A stretch of 64,000 bases of DNA from positions 62,001 to 126,000 of the IMG/VR virus record IMGVR_UViG_3300012984_000012. One strand, written 5' to 3'. Position 1 is the first letter of the stretch, and each line of letters opens with the position of its first letter. The DNA is from a virus. Below are positions 28,417 through 29,807 of the stretch, piece by piece. A model generated the notes under the pieces. That model did not search any database, was not told the origin of the DNA, and was given only the letters and a program-made list of their open reading frames with translations. The position numbers and the translations under genes are program-made.

Positions 28417-29430
28417 ATGCACGAGTTTGGGATTTACATCGGACGTTTTCAACCTGCGCACCTCGCTCACATCGCGACTGTGCGTTTTGCGCTTTCTCAG
28501 GCCAAGCGTGTCCTGATCGTCATCGGTAGCGACAACCAAGCAAGAACGATCAAGAACCCATGGACGACTGCTGAGCGCATTGCCATGATTGTCGGCGCTC
28601 TCACCCTCGAAGAGCAAGGTAGGATCACCTTCATCCCGATGCGTGATTACCTCTACAACGACAACCTCTGGATCGCTGAGATCCAACGCACCATCACGGC
28701 ACACACCGGTCCCTCAAAGGACGTCGTCCTCATCGGTCACGAAAAGGACGCTTCAAGCTTTTACTTGAAGCTGTTTCCTCAATGGACACTCATCCAGTCT
28801 GGTGTGAACATGCCAGGCGTTGACGCGACCAAGATCAGGGAGCTCATGTTTTCGCTCGACAAGATCGGCATCAAAAACTTCCTCCCAGAGAGCATTTACA
28901 ACGACGTGTGTCACTTCATGGAAATGCCTGAATTCGACAGGCTCCATGCTGAGCACCACCACATCAAAGACTATAGGTCGCAGTGGGATAGCGCTCCATT
29001 TGCACCGATGTTCGTCACGGTCGATGCGATCTGCGTCTGCAGCGGTCACGTCTTGGTCGTACGAAGGGGAGGCGAACTCGGAAGGGGCCTAATCGCATTA
29101 CCTGGCGGTTATCTCAACGGAAACGAACGAATCGTCGATGGCGCGGTACGTGAGCTTAAGGAGGAGACGGCGATCAAGATGCCCGCTCTCGAACTCAAGA
29201 AACTCATCGTTGATGAAAAGGTGTTCGATCACCCGAACAGGTCGCTTCGCGGGCGCACGATCACACATGCGTTTTGCATCAATTTGGGTCGTGGCGAGCT
29301 TCCCAAGGTAAAAGGTTCAGACGACGCCGATAAGGCGTGGTGGATGCCTCTCGACACGGTGTACTCGCAAGAGGCAAGTTTCTTCGAGGATCACTTTCAC
29401 ATCATCACGTACTTCATCAACAGGATCTGA
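28417..29430 (+). CDS. nadM: bifunctional NMN adenylyltransferase-Nudix hydrolase
   Basis: 337 residues from the ATG at 28417 (CGGAG 9-13 bases upstream). The N-terminal nucleotidyltransferase has GRFQPAH (9-15) and VDATKIREL in place of the usual ISxTxxR, so it should make NAD+ from NMN and ATP. The C-terminal Nudix domain (from about 200) has a Nudix box GGYLNGNERIVDGAVRELKE then ETAI; it fits GX5EX7REUXEEXGU except that Gly is Ala. This NadM-Nudix fusion is known from cyanobacteria and from Vibrio phage KVP40. The Nudix half typically removes ADP-ribose or related NAD breakdown products. It is the first gene of the NAD cassette and ends in a TGATG overlap. Confidence 0.93.
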   Translation: MHEFGIYIGRFQPAHLAHIATVRFALSQAKRVLIVIGSDNQARTIKNPWTTAERIAMIVGALTLEEQGRITFIPMRDYLYNDNLWIAEIQRTITAHTGPSKDVVLIGHEKDASSFYLKLFPQWTLIQSGVNMPGVDATKIRELMFSLDKIGIKNFLPESIYNDVCHFMEMPEFDRLHAEHHHIKDYRSQWDSAPFAPMFVTVDAICVCSGHVLVVRRGGELGRGLIALPGGYLNGNERIVDGAVRELKEETAIKMPALELKKLIVDEKVFDHPNRSLRGRTITHAFCINLGRGELPKVKGSDDADKAWWMPLDTVYSQEASFFEDHFHIITYFINRI

Positions 29431-29807
29431 TGAAACACCTGACTTGTTTCGTCGCTGGGCCATACTCGTCCAAGTACGGTTGGCCGGGCAGGGTCTATAA
29501 TGTCGCCAAGATGCTGGTGTTCGTCCGTCGCATCCTGAAGATGGGAATCATGCCAATCGGTCCGAACGCCATGTACTTTTGGTTCTCAAAGTGCCAGCCT
29601 TACGAGTTCTGGCTGCCAGGGACCCGAAGCATCCAAGAGAAGTGTGACGTCATCTTTTTCATCCCGGGTTGGAAGGTCTCTGGCGGCGCTCGTCAGGAAT
29701 ATGAGCACGCAGAATCAATCAGCCAACCCATCTTCACATCGCTACTGTCGCTAAAGGTCTTCAGTGAGAGGACCTCATCACAAAACACGGAGAGTGTGTC
29801 ATCATGA
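29430..29807 (+). CDS. nucleoside 2-deoxyribosyltransferase-fold protein (DUF4406-like)
   Basis: 125 residues from the ATG at 29430, overlapping the stop of the NMN adenylyltransferase and overlapped by the NAMPT start. FVAGPYSS at the N-terminus carries the family Gly-Pro-Tyr loop. GIMPIGPNAMYFWF and IQEKCDVIFFIPGWKVSGGA follow, and RQEYEHA supplies the Glu used as catalytic nucleophile in the family, with Asp in the CDV segment. The fold cleaves or exchanges N-glycosidic bonds of (deoxy)nucleosides or nucleotides and is related to NAD-hydrolysing TIR-like folds. Its position inside an NAD operon makes a nicotinamide- or NAD-linked substrate plausible. No direct evidence for that. Confidence 0.75.
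   Translation: MKHLTCFVAGPYSSKYGWPGRVYNVAKMLVFVRRILKMGIMPIGPNAMYFWFSKCQPYEFWLPGTRSIQEKCDVIFFIPGWKVSGGARQEYEHAESISQPIFTSLLSLKVFSERTSSQNTESVSS

Follow-up and report, generated by a model that had tools for sequence, protein, structure and literature searches.

Genes and features of the locus

The DNA analysed here (the window, 64,000 nucleotides) comes from a virus record of 129,880 bases in which T4-like head genes are present (IMG/VR record IMGVR_UViG_3300012984_000012); the record is possibly incomplete, so further genes of the pathway may be missing from view. The window carries a gene of the DrHyd/NDT fold (hereafter the DrHyd gene) between two NAD genes, with the following features:

28378-28415, plus strand: tandem-hairpin leader of the NMNAT gene (GACCC-agtga-GGGTT, then ACAC-ggaga-GTGT, with the Shine-Dalgarno sequence in the second loop)
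28417-29430, plus strand: bifunctional NMN adenylyltransferase/Nudix of NadM type (NMNAT; NF003791 above cut-off)
29430-29807, plus strand: DrHyd/NDT-fold gene, 125 aa, with F7, G10-P11-Y12, D73, S84-x-G86 and E90
29755-29797, plus strand: tandem-hairpin leader of the NAMPT gene (AGGTCTTC-agtga-GAGGACCT, then ACAC-ggaga-GTGT), within the 3′-terminal part of the DrHyd frame
29804-31243, plus strand: nicotinamide phosphoribosyltransferase (NAMPT/NadV; NF006629 above cut-off)
31258-31764, plus strand: macro-domain-like protein (DarG macro / phrog_335), found 3′ of NAMPT in several relatives too

The longest open reading frame of the NMNAT gene begins at 28354; the conserved leader favours the ATG at 28417 as its start. 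The frame at 29430-29807 is open and shows a coding-like composition. Its ATG (29430-29432) shares one nucleotide with the NMNAT stop codon TGA (29428-29430) in the sequence TGATG, and its own stop codon TGA (29805-29807) overlaps the NAMPT ATG (29804-29806) by four nucleotides in the sequence ATGA, which bears out the original prediction of a deoxyribosyltransferase-fold frame overlapping both NAD genes. By a simple gene caller, overlaps affect 26% of the same-strand neighbours in this phage (27 of 104), of exactly 1 or 4 nt in 19 cases, and four of 90 genes, namely the DrHyd gene and three others, have such a 1- or 4-nt overlap at each end. The double overlap of the DrHyd gene is not special; its fold and motifs are clearly beyond chance.

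Elsewhere in the window, a gene for dephospho-CoA kinase CoaE (8.4e-57; 32873-33508) lies near the NAD genes as a second cofactor-making phage gene. Two adjacent tRNAs are found at 33499-33572 and 33575-33647 (Rfam 55 and 51 bits), whose acceptor stems differ and whose apparent 8-base anticodon loop, ATTTCAAC, is identical; ARAGORN assigned no anticodon to them. An anticodon loop of eight bases is typical of four-base reading. Positions 17600-27932 hold a sugar-pathway cluster with a DegT aminotransferase, a Polysacc_synt_2 dehydratase, ATP-grasp and GNAT proteins, several glycosyltransferases and a UDP-sugar dehydrogenase, which looks like amino-sugar or nonulosonic-acid synthesis.

Fold and predicted active site of the DrHyd protein

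The DrHyd protein matched two Pfam families above their gathering scores, DUF1937 (25.8 bits, cut-off 23) and DUF4406 (24.7 bits, cut-off 22), as well as PHROG_355, annotated as 'nucleoside 2-deoxyribosyltransferase' (7.5e-13). Its AlphaFold model, built on 37 aligned sequences, reached a mean pLDDT of 94 and a pTM of 0.86. The nearest solved structure was 1T1J (VIA Z 14.4, rmsd 2.7 over 110 residues), with further matches to 7O62 (Z 11.7) and to NDT, MilB and DNPH1 (Z about 10-12). Comparison of the model with NDT and DNPH1 points to a fold matching both and to a retained catalytic pocket. Similarity to the TIR domains of ThsB2 and SPARTA reflects the shared fold only and was not taken as function.

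Residues A9, G10, P11, Y12, P45, S84, G86 and E90 are invariant in the 37 aligned sequences, whereas Asp73 is conserved in 20 of 38 sequences of the wider family and is not strictly kept. The two residues that mark DrHyd membership, the Glu of S-x-G-x-x-x-E (E90) and the Asp after the third strand (D73), are present; hence the Gly-Pro-Tyr loop, the Asp and the putative Glu nucleophile announced by the original prediction are all found, as G10-P11-Y12, D73 and E90. Ser84-x-Gly86 retains the phosphate-binding Ser-x-Gly of (d)NMP N-hydrolases. Phosphate is bound by S98 in DNPH1 and by S97/G99 in MilB, and the mechanisms of these enzymes (PMC10603095, PMC4081090) would cast E90 as nucleophile, D73 as acid and S84/G86 as the site of phosphate binding. 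When viral contigs were scanned directly for close relatives of the protein, an identical fragment was the only match. Some of its relatives (L209, L210, L213 and L232, in addition to BFVD matches) carry a second C-terminal domain by fusion, which by eye looks nucleotide-modification-associated or MazG-like.

Position 7 falls in the same column as Tyr5 of the Trypanosoma brucei enzyme TbPDT (2a0k) in the hmmsearch alignment. This sugar-selecting position is Phe in the DrHyd protein, the residue of the ribo-type enzymes MilB and AvNRT, instead of the deoxyribose-type Tyr of NDT. Among 34 aligned relatives, which had not been chosen by this letter, 30 have Tyr, and Phe is confined to three DUF1937 proteins; matches of a search pattern from a three-sequence alignment, which includes the Tyr, were left out of these counts. 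Phe at this position confers ribose preference in MilB and AvNRT (PMC4081090, PMC7308715, PMC10603095) and raises ribonucleoside use in TbPDT (PMC4081090, PMC7308715). The base-contacting position 46 is Asn, in contrast to His or Ala in most relatives, and since it corresponds to the base-recognition His of DNPH1 (H56), the natural base is not predictable.

Together, Phe7 and Ser-x-Gly favour a nucleoside 5′-monophosphate N-glycosidase with ribose tolerance. Judged from its residues, the small DrHyd protein is probably active as a nucleotide-cleaving enzyme, and our best guess is an N-glycosidase of nucleoside 5′-monophosphates, perhaps of ribo-type. By a retaining mechanism as in DNPH1 and MilB, Glu90 would attack C1′ while Asp73 would protonate or steady the leaving base and Ser84/Gly86 would hold the 5′-phosphate, after which water would release the sugar phosphate; Phe7 would favour ribose over deoxyribose. 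The predicted ribose tolerance and 5′-monophosphate binding make NMN chemically conceivable, and NMN or a signal nucleotide is a possible but unsupported substrate.

Distribution of the DrHyd gene among phage NAD loci

Loci were gathered by similarity to the NMNAT and NAMPT of this phage, and removal of duplicates left 100 distinct phage NAD loci, with NAMPT in 98, NadM in 90 and NMNAT directly 5′ of NAMPT in 76. A family profile search placed a DrHyd gene between NMNAT and NAMPT in one of the 100, that of this phage (with its identical fragment). It was absent from five loci whose NAMPT is 71-74% identical, where the slot was empty or held other small genes. No convincing match to the family was found in 11 regions of named NAMPT phages, a thin sample of distant NAD phages; ACP17 gave a single weak profile match (E 0.003), far from its NAD genes. 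The recurrence in independent phages that would mark a conserved component of the phage NAD salvage operon was thus not observed. DUF7768-type proteins in some NAD phages (L040-L042) were considered as counterparts and set aside, as they lie outside the NAD loci and apparently belong to a different subfamily.

The contents of the NMNAT-NAMPT slot vary across phages and include HNH, radical SAM, small Zn-ribbon-like and other frames, and an unrelated small slot gene overlaps the NMNAT stop codon as well in three isolated phages, DSS3_MAL1, RcXuper and MD18. Conversely, NAD genes were found near DrHyd relatives in none of 58 loci (flanks up to 4 kb); neighbours of the relatives include DNA methylases, thymidylate synthase and lysis genes. 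The original prediction had read the precise coupling as the mark of an NAD-pathway substrate, and this part does not hold up: the arrangement occurs once in 100 loci, the relatives have no NAD neighbours, overlaps are common and unrelated slot genes overlap in the same manner. What stands of it is the N-glycoside-cleaving fold with its retained catalytic pocket. Gene overlap alone is weak evidence of common function in compact phage genomes. The single occurrence, the variable slot, the frequent overlaps and the lack of NAD neighbours lead us to regard the DrHyd gene as cargo in a variable slot, best read as an accessory, occasional passenger and not as a conserved NAD step, although its insertion could have been selected for an NAD-related advantage in this one lineage.

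A small cysteine-rich frame (MSNYVCSNCGAAAYYDGRCGDGP...) recurs in the slot in 10 of the 76 loci (L005, L006, L007, L016, L021, L025, L027, L030, L036 and L037), and it makes a stronger case for an NAD-linked partner than the DrHyd gene does.

A tandem-hairpin leader at NMNAT and NAMPT starts

Comparison of upstream DNA revealed CACGGAGAGTG 5′ of the ATG as common to the NAMPT leaders of relatives. Exact copies of CGGAGAGT mark 34 of 90 NMNAT starts and 28 of 98 NAMPT starts, against 19 copies in the remainder of these loci (2.8 Mb, both strands counted); the sequence is thus specific to NAD genes, and it is one form of a wider two-hairpin structure. Hairpin 1 has a stem of mostly 6-9 bp and a loop ANNGA (AGAGA, ATAGA, AGTGA or similar); after a spacer, hairpin 2 has a stem of mostly 4-8 bp and a loop GGAGN that contains the Shine-Dalgarno sequence, just before the start codon. 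Besides the window, leader-bearing loci were noted at L005-L171, L272, L273, L307 and L309. A GGA can also be present in the first loop, since certain leaders (NAMPT of L012, L028, L033 and L101; NMNAT of L272) consist of two consecutive hairpins that both have a GGAG loop, such as CTTCTC-ggaga-GAGAAG and then ATAC-ggaga-GTAT.

All genes with a GGAG Shine-Dalgarno sequence in the same contigs served as control, which avoids choice by structure. A stem of at least 4 bp around GGAG was present at 110 of 148 NAD starts vs 11 of 388 other genes, and both hairpins were present at 67 of 148 NAD starts vs none of the 388 control genes. Common descent of the loci means that Fisher values for these counts are no true probabilities, but the stems are free to vary. 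Because a MAFFT alignment of the whole leader set put the second loop out of place, pairs were counted on an ungapped alignment of 13 sequences, in which 12 of 12 stem pairs vary on both sides with 94% pairing, vs 35-43% with slid partners; these sequences were picked for having both hairpins, and the counts are illustration rather than proof. The free-energy z-scores of the NMNAT and NAMPT leaders in the window are unremarkable (-1.0 and -0.6), and the argument for the leader is a comparative one that draws nothing from stability.

A covariance model of the 13 leaders gave 36 matches in 42 phage records, and the 30 taken as loci were all at NAD operons, 29 of them adjoining NMNAT or NAMPT. 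The thirtieth (L301 1500-2125; G357:25824) lies 5′ of two small genes that precede NMNAT, which suggests that cargo insertion downstream of the leader is also possible. The model also matched RcXuper and MD18, neither of which had been used in building it. In the 129,880-base record it matched only at 28377-28417 (NMNAT) and 29757-29799 (NAMPT), with no match before the DrHyd gene. Rfam 15 over window positions 26000-35000 returned only the two tRNAs at E up to 1 and no leader family; the model had no match in 299 bacterial genomes, in a search without a positive control, and our paper search found no description of a leader of NAD genes. These comparisons point to a conserved and apparently undescribed RNA double-hairpin leader, which may act as a switch, at NMNAT and NAMPT starts.

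CsrA prefers GGA in hairpin loops. RegB cleaves GGAG in initiation regions and can also cut a small RNA with unpaired GGA (PMC3014915). Hairpin 2 might then be a generic Shine-Dalgarno stem or a RegB (GGAG) or CsrA site, and not an NAD-specific switch, a reading that we hold to be rather unlikely: the stem is concentrated at NAD starts among GGAG-led genes, hairpin 1 is mostly devoid of GGA, all the genome-wide matches checked fall at NAD operons, and a CsrA gene was found in none of 24 leader-bearing records. A search for RegB in leader-bearing phages was also empty, though run without a positive control.

The last 17 codons of the DrHyd gene (residues 109-125) lie in the NAMPT leader, and the ATGA overlap results from the inserted DrHyd frame running into this older element. 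The initiation signal of NAMPT itself is preserved within the end of the DrHyd frame, and a mechanical link is possible, since the NAMPT hairpins would be opened by ribosomes that complete the DrHyd frame. NMNAT and NAMPT would form a regulon of their own, with translation of each starting from a tandem-hairpin leader that holds the Shine-Dalgarno sequence in a pentaloop, while the DrHyd gene, devoid of such a leader, would be translated through the NAMPT leader. Our tentative proposal, somewhat short of an even chance, is that a dedicated leader, carried by NAD salvage genes of many different phages, switches NMNAT and NAMPT translation in response to a trans-factor or to NAD state, and that translation of the inserted ribonucleotide-cleaving enzyme overrides the NAMPT switch.

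Possible roles of the enzyme

The fold, the catalytic residues, the uniqueness among the surveyed loci and the frame ending in the NAMPT leader are direct observations. On this basis, we consider it moderately probable that the DrHyd protein is a small N-glycosidase of the DrHyd/NDT fold, carried as accessory phage cargo in the variable NMNAT-NAMPT slot, and its role would probably lie in the nucleotide pool or in takeover, not in NAD salvage.

A DNPH1-like dNMP N-hydrolase, clearing or recycling host or modified deoxynucleotides during phage DNA synthesis, would fit the neighbours of the relatives (DNA methylases, thymidylate synthase and DNA polymerase), the second domain fused to some of them and the retained phosphate-binding Ser-x-Gly. 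We regard it as unlikely, as Phe7 replaces the deoxyribose-type Tyr of most relatives and the scanned parts of the possibly incomplete record yielded neither a recognisable thymidylate synthase nor a nucleotide-modification gene.

The original prediction envisaged an NAD-pathway or counter-defence enzyme that hydrolyses NMN, nicotinamide riboside, NAD or a cADPR-type alarm signal. The position between both NAD genes with a macro domain downstream, the compatibility of Phe7 with ribose and the presence of ADP-ribosyl cyclases and NADases in the DrHyd superfamily (PMC9503650) would agree with this role, but it appears improbable because the arrangement is confined to one phage lineage, the relatives have no NAD neighbours, the gene lacks the leader common to NMNAT and NAMPT, hydrolysis of NMN would undo the NAMPT step, and destruction of a cADPR-type signal is without specific evidence. 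A non-catalytic nucleotide-binding protein (a sponge or sensor) that keeps the fold is very improbable given that Glu90, Asp73 and the phosphate site are all retained, even if inactive binding versions exist in the TIR-DrHyd-SLOG clade (PMC9503650) and Asn46 departs from the usual His.

If the favoured N-glycosidase is indeed of ribo-type, it would be such a member of a widespread but unassigned phage family, with F7 as a residue-level handle on substrate choice. The leader is the larger point: if true, an RNA leader confined to NAD salvage and conserved in sequence and structure would place phage control of NAD rebuilding at the level of translation, a control not described in the searchable literature.

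Comparison with known systems

DUF1937 (PF09152; solved member 1T1J, genomics APC5043) is, with DUF4406, the best Pfam match and the top structural match. In common with the DrHyd protein it has the S-x-G...E motif and, as sugar-selecting residue, Phe, but identity is only about 17%, and DUF1937 has Glu in place of Asp73. By eye, no NAD gene was recognised beside Pseudomonas DUF1937 genes. The PHROG_355/DUF4406 phage proteins (Casjensviridae, 9NA-like and others) have the same fold, with A-G-P, P45, S84, G86 and E90 in common and a nearly invariant N24; they differ by Tyr7 and His/Ala46, vs Phe7 and Asn46 here, and by gene neighbours that are DNA methylases and lysis genes, whereas the DrHyd gene adjoins NAD genes. 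The CMP N-glycosidases MilB and BlsM and human DNPH1 share the fold (Z about 10), the catalytic Asp and Glu and the phosphate Ser, and MilB also shares the Phe at the sugar-selecting position. Identity to these enzymes is about 12-15%, and Asn46 takes the place of Glu62 in MilB and His56 in DNPH1.

Viral DrHyd domains in the survey of PMC9503650 are of ARC type only. The phage NAD salvage operons (NadM and NadV) surveyed there have the same order of NMNAT-Nudix, NAMPT and macro genes as the locus described here, which differs from them in having an additional gene, DrHyd, in the NMNAT-NAMPT slot.
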